Origin: a virus
DNA: 64,000 bases
Direction: 5' to 3' (one strand)
Virus record (IMG/VR): IMGVR_UViG_3300024255_000011
Span: 1-64,000 of that record
The notes under the pieces: generated by a model
The model's database searches: none
What the model saw: only the letters and a program-made list of their open reading frames with translations
What the model was told of the DNA's origin: nothing
Shown: positions 4,223 to 40,161 of the stretch, piece after piece
How positions within the stretch are numbered: position 1 is the first letter of the stretch
Layout of the letters: each line of letters starts with the position of its first letter
Translations under genes and position numbers: made by a program

Positions 4223-5940
4223 GAGTATTGAGAGAACCCCTTGATGCGGTTCACTTCAATGCATCTGTCAAACTTATCCTTAAATCCTCCATTGAGAGTA
4301 TGGTCAATAACAACCACATTAGTACCTTCCAACTTATACCTGAGAATAGTAAGTAGACATTCCTTTCCCACCTCATCAAGTGAAGAGGAGAACACCTCAT
4401 CAAGAATAAGAAGGTTAGTATGAACTGAGTTCTTCATCTTACCAATCTCCCTCCAAGTAAAACACAATGCCAAATCTATTCTTGCCTTCTGCCCTTCTGA
4501 GAAGGAAGCGTAAGAGAAGTCTTGGTGCATGGGTGAAGATACAGACTCATTAAACTCCTCATCCAACACAAAGTGAATTGGGAAGTCCAGTTCTGTACAG
4601 TGTCTGCGGATACAATTGTTCATCACAGGCAGATACTTCTTAACAATCTGTGCTTTGATTCCACCATCCTTAAGTAAGTCCACAACAGTATTGTGCTCTA
4701 CAATATCTTCTTGTATTTTAAATATCTTTTCCTTTAGATCAGTCTGGTCCTCTTCCATGATCTCTAACTTACCCAGTTCCTTATCCACAGAACTTGTGTC
4801 TTGCATTAGATGACAAAGTTTATTATCCATAGTGGCGATCTCTCTCTGGTGAGAGTTTACTTCAGTTTGATACTGAAACACAGAGTTTTGCAGTGACTGA
4901 ACATGTTTCTGTCTCTGCTCACCAATCCTTATAAGGTACTGGAAGCTTTCCATTTGATCTGATGCCTGCACACATGCATCATTCAGTTTCTTTGCTTCAT
5001 TTATGTTACCTGAAATGATAAGTTGCTTGACAGCAAACTCAATGTCCTGCTTACACACAGGGCAGTTATCATGATCCTCATAGAACTTAGAGTCAAGATT
5101 AATTTTGTCAATCTTGGATTGCATCTTAACAACAATGTTATTAAGTTCTTTAAGTTTCTTACTTGGGTTAGTTTTTAATTCTTGTTGTGCAAGTTTGATG
5201 ACCTGTTTCTCATTCTCTCTTACTCTATCAATAGTAGATTGCAAGTGATCAACCTTTTTGTGTCTTTCCTCAAGTGAATCTTTAATCTCTTTGATGTTGA
5301 AGTTAGATTGATTATTGAGTTCTTCAATCCTATCTTTCTGTAAATCAATCTTATAACAGAGGTTACTTAGATCACCTGTGAGTTCCACCTGCCTGTCCTT
5401 CAGAGACCTTAGGCGATCCTTCGCCATAACAGACATAAGAGAGAACACTTTGATGTCTAGGAAGTCCTCAACACACTCACGACGACCCACAGTGGGGAGT
5501 TGCATGAAAGGAGTGTAAGAGGCAGAACCAAGGATAACAACCTGACAGAAACTCTTGAAGGTTAGTTTCAGGATGTTCTGTTCCAGGTGTGTCTGGTTGT
5601 CCTTATCTGCTGCCTTTGCTAACAACCTTTCACCATTCTTCCAAATCTCAAACACCTTAGGTTTAGCACCACGCACCACCATAAATTCATTCTTACCAAT
5701 GGTAAAAACAATTTCAGTCAACATCCCCTTCTTATTCTGAGTGTTGATGAGTTGTGGCAAACGAATTGCCCTGAACGGTTTATTGAACAGAGCAAAGGTT
5801 AGAGCATCAAGGATTGTGGACTTACCACTACCATTGGTGCCATGGATTAAAGTTGTTTTACTAGAGTTGAGATTGATGGTAACTGGAATGTTACCAGTTG
5901 AAAGAAAGTTCTTAAACGTCAGTGTCTTGAAGACGATCAT
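4219..5940 (-). CDS. gp46: Recombination nuclease subunit gp46 (Rad50/SbcC-like ATPase)
   Basis: The 573 residues match the length of T4 gp46 (about 560). Walker A is GTNGSGKS at residues 34-41. Two long coiled-coil arms flank a CPVC zinc hook at 293-296. The ABC signature FSEGQKARIDLA is at 480-491, and Walker B LLILDEV follows at 510-516. With gp47 this makes the Mre11/Rad50-type complex that resects DNA ends for recombination-dependent replication and degrades host DNA. A 101-residue gene lies between it and gp47, as in related marine phages. Its start region overlaps that gene by 29 bases. Confidence 0.97.
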   Translation of the reverse strand: MIVFKTLTFKNFLSTGNIPVTINLNSSKTTLIHGTNGSGKSTILDALTFALFNKPFRAIRLPQLINTQNKKGMLTEIVFTIGKNEFMVVRGAKPKVFEIWKNGERLLAKAADKDNQTHLEQNILKLTFKSFCQVVILGSASYTPFMQLPTVGRRECVEDFLDIKVFSLMSVMAKDRLRSLKDRQVELTGDLSNLCYKIDLQKDRIEELNNQSNFNIKEIKDSLEERHKKVDHLQSTIDRVRENEKQVIKLAQQELKTNPSKKLKELNNIVVKMQSKIDKINLDSKFYEDHDNCPVCKQDIEFAVKQLIISGNINEAKKLNDACVQASDQMESFQYLIRIGEQRQKHVQSLQNSVFQYQTEVNSHQREIATMDNKLCHLMQDTSSVDKELGKLEIMEEDQTDLKEKIFKIQEDIVEHNTVVDLLKDGGIKAQIVKKYLPVMNNCIRRHCTELDFPIHFVLDEEFNESVSSPMHQDFSYASFSEGQKARIDLALCFTWREIGKMKNSVHTNLLILDEVFSSSLDEVGKECLLTILRYKLEGTNVVVIDHTLNGGFKDKFDRCIEVNRIKGFSQYS

Positions 5941-6217
5941 TATTAAGTGATGCTAGTAGGGTTTCCATTTTAGGAATAACAAAGTCACCTGGCTCAACTA
6001 TACAATAAGCATAACCAAGAACAGTACAAAGTTTTTCCAGTGATTCTATTTCGACTTCAGTCACATGTAGAGGTTGGTCTACAGCCTCCAGTTGTACATT
6101 ATAAGTGATGGCATCATCTTTGTCAATGAACATTTGAATCATTGCGTTGCCATCACCATCAAGCGTAGCAAAGGTACCAGAATCTATATCATCAATCTTT
6201 CTGGTTAGAATAAACAT
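5912..6217 (-). CDS. Small conserved-type protein between gp46 and gp47
   Basis: The protein has 101 residues, is acidic, and I do not recognise its family. It starts MFILTRKIDDID and has alternating strands and one helix (ESLEKLCTVLGYAYC). Its ATG overlaps the gp47 stop by one base (TAATG) and its 3' end runs 29 bases into gp46. It is therefore co-translated with the two nuclease subunits and may assist them, although nothing in the sequence shows a catalytic site. Confidence 0.75.
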   Translation of the reverse strand: MFILTRKIDDIDSGTFATLDGDGNAMIQMFIDKDDAITYNVQLEAVDQPLHVTEVEIESLEKLCTVLGYAYCIVEPGDFVIPKMETLLASLNNDRLQDTDV

Positions 6218-7498: not shown

Positions 7499-8008
7499 TT
7501 ATGCCCTTCCAAACTTTTGGAGATAAGCTACATCCATATTATAATCGTCTTCTTCCTGTGTGTCAAGCTCCTCTCTAATCCCAGACTCAGCACCATCAGG
7601 TTGTTGAACATCTGTAGGGATCTCTTTCTCCATTGGTGTTCTCATGTCATCAGGGGTTACCTGATCCATTCTCTGCACCAGTTCATCCTTAGCTAAGATG
7701 GACAGATGATCAGCGTCCTTTTCAATTCTGATGTTCTTTTTATTATTATCTTTCTGTACTCTGCCTAAGGTGGCAGCAAGTTGTGCTTTCTGTTGTGGAT
7801 CTCCAGTGTCCACTTCACCATACACGTGCTCATGAGCACCTGTAGGATCCATCCCAGAAGCCCTGGCCAGATCTACTTTCTTTCTCTCTTGTGTGACAGG
7901 GTGCTCATAGTCATCCTCATTGGGACTCCCCACTGTAGGGGATGGTGGTTCCATTTCAGTCCCTAGAAGGCTTTCATATAAGTCCCACAGTTTGTTTAAT
8001 GGATCCAT
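7499..8008 (-). CDS. Unknown acidic protein between gp47 and gp55
   Basis: The protein has 169 residues and begins MDPLNKLWDLYESLLGTE, an amphipathic helix. A low-complexity acidic and Pro-rich middle follows. The last residues are VAYLQKFGRA. I cannot assign a function. The gene has its own late promoter core (8090-8096), and a strong hairpin (8025-8057) lies in its leader. Both suggest late expression separate from gp55. No enzyme motif is visible. Confidence 0.7.
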   Translation of the reverse strand: MDPLNKLWDLYESLLGTEMEPPSPTVGSPNEDDYEHPVTQERKKVDLARASGMDPTGAHEHVYGEVDTGDPQQKAQLAATLGRVQKDNNKKNIRIEKDADHLSILAKDELVQRMDQVTPDDMRTPMEKEIPTDVQQPDGAESGIREELDTQEEDDYNMDVAYLQKFGRA

Positions 8009-8089: not shown

Positions 8090-8096
8090 TATTTAT
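8090..8096 (-). promoter_or_regulatory. Late promoter core upstream of the 169-residue gene
   Basis: The minus strand reads CAATAAATAAC, containing ATAAATA. It overlaps the last codon of gp55 and lies about 80 bases before the start at 8008. T4-like gp55 sigma recognises TATAAATA or close variants. Confidence 0.5.
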
Positions 8097-8578
8097 TGCC
8101 TTCCTTGACGCTTCTGATCCACTACATCTTTGATGCTATTATATTCTGAGGAACTACCCAGTTGATCACTCTCAAAGAATTCCTCAAACCCAGATTTAGC
8201 AATAATTTTATCACAGATCTCAATCTGTTTCTTCTCTTTACCAATCCTTCTAATGAAGGCGTACCAACATACCTGTGTAAAATAAGAGAAAGGATTCTGA
8301 GACTTCTCTGGATCAAACCTGTGACAATACACCACACAATTCTCCACTGCATCCATCACCATGTCCTGTCTGTACATGTAGTTGGAGAAGTTAGGTCTCA
8401 TTGAGAGGTGCTCAGCAATGTCTAGGAAACACTTACCAATGTATCTGGGGATGATAGGTCTAGGTTGCTCAAGGTCCTTAGCCTCATCACATGCCTTTCT
8501 GAACTTTACCATTGCTGCATAGAACTCTTTATTGTCTATGAAGTTATTCTTTCTGCGCTTTGGTTTGATGTCACTCAT
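8093..8578 (-). CDS. gp55: Late-transcription sigma factor gp55
   Basis: The protein has 161 residues (T4 gp55 has 185). Its pattern is that of the small T4-like sigma: a basic start, a region with YIGKCFLDIAEHLSMRPNF, then DAVENCVVYCHRFDP and NPFSYFTQVCWYAFIRRI, which corresponds to sigma region 2. The last residues are acidic. It directs host RNA polymerase to ATAAATA-type late promoters, of which this window holds about twenty. Its own promoter looks sigma-70-like rather than late, which suits a gene needed before late transcription begins. A good ribosome site (AAGGA) precedes the ATG. Confidence 0.95.
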   Translation of the reverse strand: MSDIKPKRRKNNFIDNKEFYAAMVKFRKACDEAKDLEQPRPIIPRYIGKCFLDIAEHLSMRPNFSNYMYRQDMVMDAVENCVVYCHRFDPEKSQNPFSYFTQVCWYAFIRRIGKEKKQIEICDKIIAKSGFEEFFESDQLGSSSEYNSIKDVVDQKRQGRQ

Positions 8579-8598
8579 ATGGTCCTTTATTTGTTATT

Positions 8599-8627
8599 AT
8601 TATAATCCCTTTATTGAGATTAGTTAA
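8599..8627 (-). promoter_or_regulatory. Sigma-70-like promoter for gp55
   Basis: On the minus strand, TTAACT (plus 8622-8627) is followed after exactly 17 bases by TATAAT (plus 8599-8604). The start codon of gp55 is 20 bases further on. The -35 box is one base away from the -35 box of an oppositely directed promoter at 8629. Confidence 0.6.
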
Positions 8628-8628
8628 C

Positions 8629-8696
8629 TTAACACACTTCATCATTAGTGTTATACTTGTAGTGTAACAACAAATGGGATGAGTAGCTTAGCTATC
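8629..8696 (+). promoter_or_regulatory. Conserved promoter element, copy A, pointing antisense
   Basis: The plus strand has TTAACA (8629-8634), 17 bases, then an extended -10 TGTTATACT ending at 8657. The following transcribed stretch (about 8661-8696), including TAGCTTAGCTA, is nearly identical to copy B at 39849-39917. No plus-strand gene lies downstream. A transcript would run antisense to the 142-residue gene and uvsW. The element contains the stop codon of the 142-residue gene. Confidence 0.6.
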
Positions 8697-9116
8697 AGTT
8701 GATAAGTCAGGACTGCCATCAAAGATGCCCTCTAGTTTCTTTCTAAAGGAATCTATCTTATCAACAAACCCTGGATTCTTTTTGGTTTCAACCTTTCTTT
8801 TGATTGGAGAAGTTACTTTAGCAGCGATGAGAGCTTTCTCATAAAATTCAATACCGAATTTATCTAACTCTGACATCGTAACAACGTGTGTGCGATTCAC
8901 AATGGTGAGATCGTCATTAGAAAATAACATCCATCGTTTAGGAATAAGACCAGAGATTACAACTCCCTTCTCTGTGTCTATTGTAGTGTTCTCATTAATT
9001 GTTATGGGGTTAGACAATACATAAAAGTCTGTGCCATTTTCCTCTGTTGAATACACTTCTGCAAGAACTTCCTCACCAGTAATCATTTTGATTGTGGCGT
9101 GAAATGGATCTAACAT
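8688..9116 (-). CDS. Sm-like (LSM fold) small protein downstream of uvsW
   Basis: The protein has 142 residues. Residues 5-60 (FHATIKMITGEEVLAEV, then strands FYVLSNPITI and KGVVISGL) look like an Sm/LSM barrel, a fold that often binds RNA or forms rings. The C-terminal third is helical and basic, then acidic (FDGSPDLSTDS). Such genes are common next to uvsW in marine T4-like phages, but their role is not established to my knowledge. The start overlaps the uvsW stop by seven bases. A late promoter core lies 23 bases upstream, inside uvsW. Confidence 0.75.
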   Translation of the reverse strand: MLDPFHATIKMITGEEVLAEVYSTEENGTDFYVLSNPITINENTTIDTEKGVVISGLIPKRWMLFSNDDLTIVNRTHVVTMSELDKFGIEFYEKALIAAKVTSPIKRKVETKKNPGFVDKIDSFRKKLEGIFDGSPDLSTDS

Positions 9117-10591
9117 AAATTTAAAACTCCCTCATTGGTATTTATTGCCACTTCAGAAATGCGATACTCGAAATTCTCATCACAATAATACTTGATTCTT
9201 TCTGCAAGGTGTGTCAAGGTAAAGTTATTCCTCCCTCCACTCTTTCTAAAGTCATCTGCAATATCATATAACTTTACTTTACTCTTTGACTTTGTCTTCC
9301 TCAGACCTCTGCCAATGCTCTGAAGGACACGTATACGAGACTTAGATGGAGAAGCAAAAATAACATGGTGGAGATTTTTGATATTAACACCAGTAGACAT
9401 AGTACCATAGCTACCAAGGATGATATTATTATCAGATCCTTCACACACCGAACGAACTTCCTCCCTCTTTTTAACATCCACATCTCCATGGATGAGATGA
9501 ACTGGTCTGTCAGTGATCGTATCGATAAGTTCCGCAAGTGGGATGCCATGCCCCTCCACTCTAGCGAAGAGAACCAACACGTTACCCTTGAGATCATCGG
9601 CAAGTTTGCAGATGAATTCGTTTCGTTCTTGTAGTAACCCAATTCTCTCAATCTCATCATTGTAAGTTTCGAAAACTTCTGGGGGGTGTTTGAGTTGGAT
9701 GATTTCGACTTTAAGTTTAGCAAGGAATCCCTTCTCCATTAAATCAGCAGAGGATGTGGTTTTATAAACAGGTCCAAAGTGTCCTTCTAATATTAACTTA
9801 TGAACGTTCTTTCCGTCAAGTGTACCAGTAAAACCATACCTCCACTTTGCATCAGGCATCTTCTTCATAATGCCACCCAAACACTTTGCCTTAAAGTTGT
9901 GGCACTCATCTCCTATCACCCCATCAAACTGCCTGAACCACTTCTTTTCCATACCATAGATGGATTGCCAGGTGGAAATGGTACAGGGTGCTGTGGTGTC
10001 CAGAGAGTGTCCCTGATAAATCTTATGCATATTATCCTCTTCCCAACCATAGTCCAGGAAGTCCTTATACATCTGTTCCACCAGTGACTTGGAGGGAACA
10101 ACCAACAACACTCTCTTACCAATAGACTTCAGGTATCTACAGATAGAGTAAATCATAAGAGACTTACCTGACCCTGTGGGGGACAGAATAGTCTTTCTGT
10201 GTTCCTTTAGTGCATGAAACACTGTCTCCACCTGGTACTCTCTTGGTGTTACAGAGGATATCTTATTCATAAACAACTCCACACCCTCATAGAACACCCT
10301 CTCATCCACCTCATAAGGGACTCCATAAAAAGAGTTGTCCTCAAACTCCCAAGTGTACCCATGCCTGTCTAACCACTTGCACAGTTGGTATGTGAGACCT
10401 GCTGGCATTGATTTGGTGTGAGTGGATAACAATCGCACCTTTCCATCCCAGTACTTCTTCCTGTAAGCAGGAGAAAAGGAAGCGCCCTCTACATCAAAAG
10501 AGAATGCTTCCTGTAATTCGTATAGGATGTGGGGTTCACAATCCAGAGTAATATCAATCTCGTTCTTCTTCTGAATAACGCAGTCAGTCAT
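9110..10591 (-). CDS. uvsW: UvsW DNA/RNA helicase (superfamily 2)
   Basis: The protein has 493 residues, close to T4 UvsW. After an N-terminal double-stranded-DNA-contact region come the helicase motifs: Q-type REYQ (117-120), Walker A PTGSGKS (138-144), DECH box (228-231), motif III GFTGTLDG (about 254-261) and motif VI QSIGRGLRK near residue 430. UvsW unwinds R-loops and branched DNA, and switches replication from origin-dependent to recombination-dependent mode. A late promoter core lies 20 bases upstream, in keeping with late expression of UvsW in T4. It is separated from uvsY here by five appendage genes. Confidence 0.97.
   Translation of the reverse strand: MTDCVIQKKNEIDITLDCEPHILYELQEAFSFDVEGASFSPAYRKKYWDGKVRLLSTHTKSMPAGLTYQLCKWLDRHGYTWEFEDNSFYGVPYEVDERVFYEGVELFMNKISSVTPREYQVETVFHALKEHRKTILSPTGSGKSLMIYSICRYLKSIGKRVLLVVPSKSLVEQMYKDFLDYGWEEDNMHKIYQGHSLDTTAPCTISTWQSIYGMEKKWFRQFDGVIGDECHNFKAKCLGGIMKKMPDAKWRYGFTGTLDGKNVHKLILEGHFGPVYKTTSSADLMEKGFLAKLKVEIIQLKHPPEVFETYNDEIERIGLLQERNEFICKLADDLKGNVLVLFARVEGHGIPLAELIDTITDRPVHLIHGDVDVKKREEVRSVCEGSDNNIILGSYGTMSTGVNIKNLHHVIFASPSKSRIRVLQSIGRGLRKTKSKSKVKLYDIADDFRKSGGRNNFTLTHLAERIKYYCDENFEYRISEVAINTNEGVLNLC
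9139..9145 (-). promoter_or_regulatory. Late promoter core upstream of the Sm-like gene
   Basis: The minus strand reads GGCAATAAATACC inside the 3' end of uvsW, 23 bases before the ATG at 9116. Confidence 0.55.
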
Positions 10592-10610: not shown

Positions 10611-10617
10611 TATTTAT
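10611..10617 (-). promoter_or_regulatory. Late promoter core upstream of uvsW
   Basis: The minus strand reads ATAATAAATAGTC, 20 bases before the uvsW ATG at 10591. Confidence 0.6.
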
Positions 10618-10622
10618 TATGG

Positions 10623-39834: not shown

Positions 39835-39848
39835 GTTTTATGGGGTGC

Positions 39849-39917
39849 TTTACACACTACCTTATTAATGTTATACTTGTAGTGTCAACAACAAATGGGA
39901 TAACTAGCTTAGCTACC
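39849..39917 (+). promoter_or_regulatory. Conserved promoter element, copy B, for the lone plus-strand gene
   Basis: TTTACA (39849-39854) is followed after exactly 17 bases by TATACT (39872-39877) with the extended -10 TGT. The stretch to TAGCTTAGCTA nearly matches copy A at 8629-8696. A late promoter core (39918-39924) begins right after it, and the ATG of a 70-residue gene lies at 39949. This gives that gene both an early-type and a late-type promoter. Confidence 0.65.
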
Positions 39918-39948: not shown

Positions 39949-40161
39949 ATGGCTATACCTAAAGGTACTAAGAGGTACCAACACTTACAAACAAAAGAGG
40001 TTAGATATTTTCGTAATCCCCCTAATCTAAATGCATGGGAAAAGATTGGAACACCAGGATCCAAGAATTGGAGATGGGTCAATAACAATTCACAAGAAAA
40101 ATATATCAGCTCGAATGACCCTATCCCTGAGGGATATTCATTGGGTCGTATGAAGGGCTAA
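39949..40161 (+). CDS. Lone plus-strand 70-residue protein resembling homing-endonuclease accessory motif
   Basis: The protein has 70 residues, is basic and Trp/Asn-rich. Its end (NWRWVNNNSQEKYIS, then DPIPEGYSLGRMKG) is like the short DNA-contact module found at the C-terminus of many phage HNH and GIY-YIG homing proteins and as free-standing small genes. No nuclease domain is present. It is the only plus-strand gene between 4222 and 64000. Its stop abuts the stop of the gene on the other strand with no gap (TAATTA). Promoter element copy B lies directly upstream. It may be a remnant or a passenger of a mobile gene. Confidence 0.65.
   Translation: MAIPKGTKRYQHLQTKEVRYFRNPPNLNAWEKIGTPGSKNWRWVNNNSQEKYISSNDPIPEGYSLGRMKG

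Follow-up and report, generated by a model that had tools for sequence, protein, structure and literature searches.

A conserved predicted antisense promoter upstream of the late sigma factor gene gp55 in T4-like cyanophages

The sigma factor gp55 is the master switch for late transcription throughout the T4 superfamily. In T4, the sigma-70 polymerase reportedly makes an 'anti-late' RNA complementary to late transcripts, as described in the 1970s by Geiduschek and Grau and by Frederick and Snyder. In this work we focused on the region upstream of gp55 in a virus from IMG/VR (record IMGVR_UViG_3300024255_000011), of which the first 64,000 of 108,850 bases, hereafter the window, were analysed. 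Two sigma-70-type promoters are predicted there back to back, one leading into gp55 and the other, in the antisense direction, into the end of an Sm-like protein gene and toward the helicase gene uvsW. Like the anti-late RNA, the transcript of this second promoter would be made by sigma-70 polymerase in a member of the T4 superfamily, opposite putative late transcripts and before late transcription. The T4 phenomenon was defined by bulk RNA mapping, whereas the gp55 site is one defined and conserved promoter, predicted here from sequence.

Antisense RNA has also been seen experimentally in a T4-like cyanophage, S-PM2, where CfrI, a proposed cis-antisense regulator of about 225 nucleotides (nt), is found at psbA and a homing endonuclease gene (PMC2984593, PMC5931967). 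The gp55/Sm-like/uvsW site resembles it in kind, but it is a sequence prediction that holds group-wide and that differs from CfrI in location. In bacteria, PMC10268837 and PMC12825309 describe sigma-70 promoters on opposite strands with overlapping elements and potential polymerase competition, as in the gp55 unit. The bidirectional promoters of Warman et al. 2021, as cited in PMC10268837, share their -10 and have divergent starts 7-25 base pairs (bp) apart; the gp55 unit differs from this definition, as summarised there, by its shared or adjacent -35 boxes, its separate -10 boxes and, in the window, its widely spaced starts. Our full-text literature search, with subscription papers mostly outside its reach, turned up no account of an antisense promoter conserved at gp55, and we do not claim priority. 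Antisense RNA in these phages (CfrI) and the anti-late concept of T4 were already known, and the conserved antisense promoter predicted at gp55 adds to them.

The promoter pair and its conservation

The elements of the pair in the window, re-read from the sequence, are as follows.

8629-8634, plus strand: -35 box TTAACA of the antisense promoter; TTNACA is kept in relatives, at 2.0 bits at most positions
8649-8657, plus strand: extended -10 of the antisense promoter, TGT TATACT (TATACT at 8652-8657); the 17-nt spacing is kept in relatives
8649-8669, plus strand: clade-wide block TGTTATACTTGTAGTGT(C)AAC, from the -10 to about +6; the same block occurs in relatives, and TGT at the predicted start is kept in both clades
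8664, plus strand: antisense start site, predicted from the boxes
8627-8622, minus strand: -35 box of the gp55 promoter, TTAACT; it is weak, and the close clade has not kept it
8604-8599, minus strand: -10 box TATAAT of the gp55 promoter, conserved in relatives
near 8592, minus strand: gp55 start site, predicted from the boxes

Boxes, spacings and coordinates of both promoters proved exact as originally predicted, including the single base (8628) that separates the two -35 boxes. Both spacers measure 17 nt, and the predicted starts (8592 and 8664) lie 72 bp apart, each with its own -10 box. The antisense promoter has hexamers and spacing of the sigma-70 type (10/12 consensus matches) and was the better of the two when the local 170 nt were compared with dinucleotide shuffles (p about 0.01, against about 0.04 for the sense promoter). 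The window contains one back-to-back pair in which both promoters score 10/12; mononucleotide shuffles contain 0.05 such pairs each on average. A plain scan of 20 kilobases (kb) gave 38 promoter-like sites where 44 were expected, which is not above chance, so that a single sequence alone is weak evidence. Conservation is the decisive evidence for the predicted pair, that from the single sequence being modest.

The virus of the window is a T4-like cyanophage. Its gp55, uvsW, Sm-like gene, gp46 and gp47 were assigned by PHROG and Pfam, and its gp55 has its nearest named relatives in Synechococcus phages S-B68, S-CREM2 and the Makaravirus group (75-78% identity), metagenomic relatives reaching 88%. 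Since megablast of the region against named phages gave no match, relatives were collected by protein-level searches, and the sample comprised 116 non-redundant gp55 upstream regions of T4-like cyanophages from IMG/VR and named isolates. The antisense half of the arrangement, which had been proposed for a search in related phages, was found upstream of their gp55 genes: 90 of the 116 loci carry a perfect antisense match (TTGACA-N16-18-TANNNT) within 100 bp. In the other 100-bp bins of these loci the rate is 0.26%, which corresponds to a local enrichment of about 300-fold. The best antisense site exceeded 95% of local shuffles in 90% of the loci. The site is present in Syn9 and S-PM2 (both with 11/12 consensus matches), P-SSM2, P-HM2, Syn19 and S-RIM2. 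It is the sole perfect antisense match in the whole 175-kb genome of Syn19 and one of 2-4 per genome in P-SSM2, S-RIM2, S-TIM4 and P-HM2; ACG-2014f has a near-match, with TTGCCA in place of the perfect site. The antisense start is predicted on the minus strand near 123698 in Syn9 (DQ149023.2), 84439 in S-PM2 (AJ630128.1), 124805 in P-SSM2 (AY939844.2) and 120709 in P-HM2 (GU075905.1), and the corresponding gp55 starts near 123752, 84515, 124869 and 120788.

Loss of the box spacing in close relatives, looked for as a sign against the pair, was not seen for the antisense promoter: its boxes recur in the IMG/VR relatives at a distance of 17 nt, or of 18 nt in a few of them, and the -35 is often a perfect TTGACA (TTGACA-17-TATACT in locus L002). 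A longer block in these relatives, TGTTAYACTTGTAGTGTCAAC, includes both the antisense -10 and the predicted start, and conservation in the close clade continues for about 10 nt past the -10. The sigma-70-like promoter originally proposed for gp55 fared less evenly, its TATAAT being kept in this clade while its weak -35 drifts (TACACA, TTTATT, TGGACT, TCGACA). In the clade of the window, the predicted antisense promoter is thus better conserved than that of gp55. In most distant cyanophages the gp55 -35 is TTGTCA or TTGACA. When the 92 loci with a 17-nt spacer were aligned on the antisense -35, 51 had a sense -10 at 16-18 nt from the antisense -35 heptamer, mostly TTGTCAA; in these 51 loci one heptamer is the putative -35 for both directions. 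The TGT at the predicted antisense start is shared by two clades between which the identity of the gp55 proteins is about 50%. Outside the cyanophages, Sinorhizobium phage phiM12 has divergent sigma-70 promoters at the same place, between the Sm-like gene and gp55 (antisense TTGACA-16-TATAAT), with the difference that an annotated open reading frame (ORF) of 50 amino acids (aa) lies between these genes under the antisense promoter. Taken together, the conservation suggests that the antisense promoter is a functional, selected element, which is the best-supported part of our interpretation.

The path of the predicted antisense transcript

The genes around the pair, and the motif ahead of uvsW, are the following.

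8093-8578, minus strand: gp55, late sigma factor, 161 aa (PHROG 234, E=1.8e-61; listed relatives 75-86% identical)
8688-9116, minus strand: Sm-like protein gene (T4-GC139, 'methylamine utilization'; Pfam Sm_like, E=9e-11; PHROG 471)
9110-10591, minus strand: uvsW helicase gene (PHROG 16, E=4.5e-104)
10611-10619, minus strand: TAATAAATA, a motif of late-promoter type located 19 nt upstream of the ATG of uvsW; counterpart of the TAAATA motif in relatives

The first target of the antisense transcript would be the Sm-like gene, entered at its 3' end, with uvsW as the next gene in the path. No conserved antisense ORF was found downstream in 102 cyanophage loci, the longest ORFs being scattered and mutually unlike, and such an ORF was rejected for the cyanophages. 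A short small RNA with a nearby terminator at gp55 was rejected as well, intrinsic terminators within 600 nt of the antisense start being no more frequent than chance (9/102 loci, 10 in shuffles). The same applies to a structured or known RNA: the window has no Rfam match at the gathering threshold, and its antisense leader folds no better than shuffles (z=-0.6). With no conserved ORF, no terminator beyond chance, no Rfam family and no unusual fold, the antisense transcript would enter uvsW. To our knowledge, Rho is generally absent from cyanobacteria.

UvsW of T4 is a late protein that unwinds R-loops. Of 30 non-redundant loci, 22 carry TAAATA in the 70 nt ahead of uvsW (2 expected), in most of them at 25-32 nt before the ATG; before gp55 it is present in only 9 of 116 loci. 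The antisense sigma-70 promoter would oppose a uvsW-Sm unit that looks gp55-dependent. Its orientation matches that of the T4-type anti-late RNA, and the lateness of uvsW in these phages rests on the TAAATA motif. The original prediction of a switch linking early transcription, gp55 and uvsW is architecturally plausible, given the missing terminator before uvsW and the conserved late-like motif; what is uncertain is the word 'early'. Doron et al. 2016 are said to have assigned host-like promoters of Syn9 to middle genes, which makes the early or middle class uncertain. Sigma-70 motifs have been described for early genes in S-PM2 and Syn9 (PMC2984593).

In the sense direction, terminators between the Sm-like gene and gp55 were counted in 8 of 116 loci (3.1 expected), and a general terminator at this place was rejected; P-HM2 and a few relatives have one. 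In the P-HM2 record (L181, about 120740-120785) the gp55 -35, TTGACA, sits in the loop of a terminator-like hairpin, and CCCCGC-TTGACA-GCAGGG followed by T7 forms a combined terminator and promoter.

Other copies of the motif and the start-site dyad

The promoter motif is not unique to gp55. Sense copies occur in relatives, and the window holds one more, at 39849.

39847-39917, plus strand: second copy of the antisense promoter and leader, opposite to the surrounding structural genes (71-column alignment with 8627-8697)
39949-40161, plus strand: 70-aa ORF after this copy

The exact 17-mer of the TGTTATACTTGTAGTGT block occurs twice in the 108,850-base record. The only named relative of the 70-aa ORF is SCRM01_028c of S-CRM01, 68% identical, also on the opposite strand and beside gp13. 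The same block stands in sense orientation ahead of small-ORF clusters in S-B68, S-CREM2, S-H34 and MA01, and the local version of Syn19 and S-RIM2 (TTGACA-17-TANNNTAACCATGTRAGGGTT type) is also found ahead of cpeT and a small-ORF cluster. The motif marks a predicted class of promoters in these phages, of which each genome holds a few; among the members seen, the gp55-antisense copy is the most conserved.

Further sites were noted in passing. In L207, L208 and L209 the 17-mer block also occurs in antisense orientation away from gp55, where it leads into a 123-aa ORF. In S-B68 (L094, record 122081, minus strand) an antisense copy is followed within about 100 nt by what looks, on inspection by eye, like a terminator with its hairpin and T-run (GACCCTTCGGGTC-TTTCTTTTT); this copy is a candidate for a free-standing small RNA in a structural-gene region. 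Two perfect 12/12 sigma-70 promoters on the minus strand of the window (7566-7538 and 6126-6098) lie inside the ORFs 7499-8008 and 5912-6217 and point toward a 73-aa gene and gp46.

A dyad is centred on the predicted antisense start (104 loci), and its arms change together between phages: AACAG/CTGTT, AACTT/AAGTT, ATGAG/CTCAT, GTAGT/ACTAC and GTTAT/ATAAC, with CAGGA/TCCTG in phiM12. When arms were cross-paired between phages, fewer pairs than observed were obtained in 200 of 200 trials, kinship being uncontrolled in this comparison. The dyad is weak in the window itself, and a few sense promoters of the same genome have it in common. Because the predicted start falls in the middle of the dyad and because GU-type and AC-type mismatches do not distinguish the strands, we prefer a possible DNA operator of a phage regulator over an RNA hairpin.

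Proposed mechanism and competing explanations

The reading that we tentatively favour, with less than full conviction, is a conserved divergent promoter unit which would combine sigma-70 anti-late transcription with mutual exclusion between the antisense and gp55 promoters. The host-type sigma-70 RNA polymerase would initiate gp55 transcription at the promoter with TATAAT; at the opposed promoter it would produce an anti-late antisense RNA that is not translated and that crosses the Sm-like gene to reach uvsW. The -35 boxes lie side by side in the window and coincide in one heptamer in roughly half of the relatives, so a polymerase on one promoter would exclude the other, and the antisense promoter would also temper gp55 output. 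As long as the sigma-70 polymerase is active, antisense transcription would oppose uvsW-Sm expression; once gp55 takes over the polymerase, the antisense promoter would fall silent and the late-type uvsW promoter would be free to act. In Escherichia coli, polymerases are known to compete at divergent promoters that overlap, provided that these are transcribed strongly enough (PMC12825309).

Several observations weigh against this divergent unit. Basal transcription at the tested E. coli bidirectional promoters was too low for competition (PMC12825309). A clear antisense site is missing in the close relatives L009, L016, L019, L021-L025 and S-B68 (short intergenic regions), and in S-CRM01, so the site appears dispensable in some lineages. 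The late-type uvsW motif was not seen in Syn19, S-TIM4, S-RIM2, P-HM2 or ACG-2014f. Finally, the motif is predicted to drive ordinary sense genes elsewhere and may simply be the standard promoter of this phage group.

Foremost among the alternatives, though unlikely, is promoter competition only, in which the antisense promoter would act as a brake on gp55 through the shared -35 and the antisense RNA would be a by-product. The TTGTCAA heptamer common to both directions in about half of the 92 loci speaks for it, as do the missing antisense ORF, the missing terminator and the ordinary fold of the window leader. Yet the clade of the window has separate boxes and a drifted gp55 -35 and has still kept the antisense promoter together with about 10 nt past its -10, and occlusion by itself gives no reason to conserve the start site.

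An extended form of the divergent unit, improbable in its entirety, is a self-locking switch built into the late sigma gene throughout the T4-like cyanophages. The sigma-70 polymerase would make gp55 and, from the same shared -35, transcribe in opposition to uvsW-Sm, a unit that would depend on gp55 and supply gp55 by read-through; displacement of sigma-70 by gp55 would then stop the opposition and lock in the late state. The clade-specific start-site dyad would let a phage regulator tune the promoter together with a few early or auxiliary metabolic gene (AMG) promoters.

A small divergent gene ranks behind competition and is also improbable: the site would drive a short peptide or small RNA, its overlap with the Sm-like gene and uvsW being incidental. 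This would fit the 50-aa ORF of phiM12, the 70-aa ORF after the second window copy with its opposite-strand homologue in S-CRM01, and the apparent terminator near the S-B68 copy, but at gp55 the 102 cyanophage loci have no conserved downstream ORF and no nearby terminator, and the window has no Rfam match.

More doubtful again is a protective antisense RNA, which would pair with the uvsW-Sm mRNA and protect it against host RNase E while infection proceeds. According to PMC10976474, antisense transcription is also observed in the Kyanoviridae; however, the coverage described is genome-wide, unlike one antisense sigma-70 site, highly conserved, at a single gene, and Syn19 is without any other perfect antisense site. 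Chance resemblance of an AT-rich intergenic region to a promoter on both strands would agree with the ordinary frequency of promoter-like sites in the window overall, but it is highly improbable and was rejected in view of the conservation (90/116 loci against 0.26% per bin, the roughly 300-fold enrichment in relatives, the fixed 17-nt spacing and the conserved start site).

A promoter that lies opposite to genes at gp55 and is kept in over three quarters of the sampled cyanophages probably has a job in the timing of infection. MotA and AsiA are absent from cyanophages (PMC2984593), and the antisense promoter offers a strong, inexpensive lead on how gp55 timing is set without them. If the divergent unit is real, it would put a specific regulatory element behind the passage from early to late transcription in these ocean viruses, and the general lesson would be that phage antisense promoters can be under strong selection.
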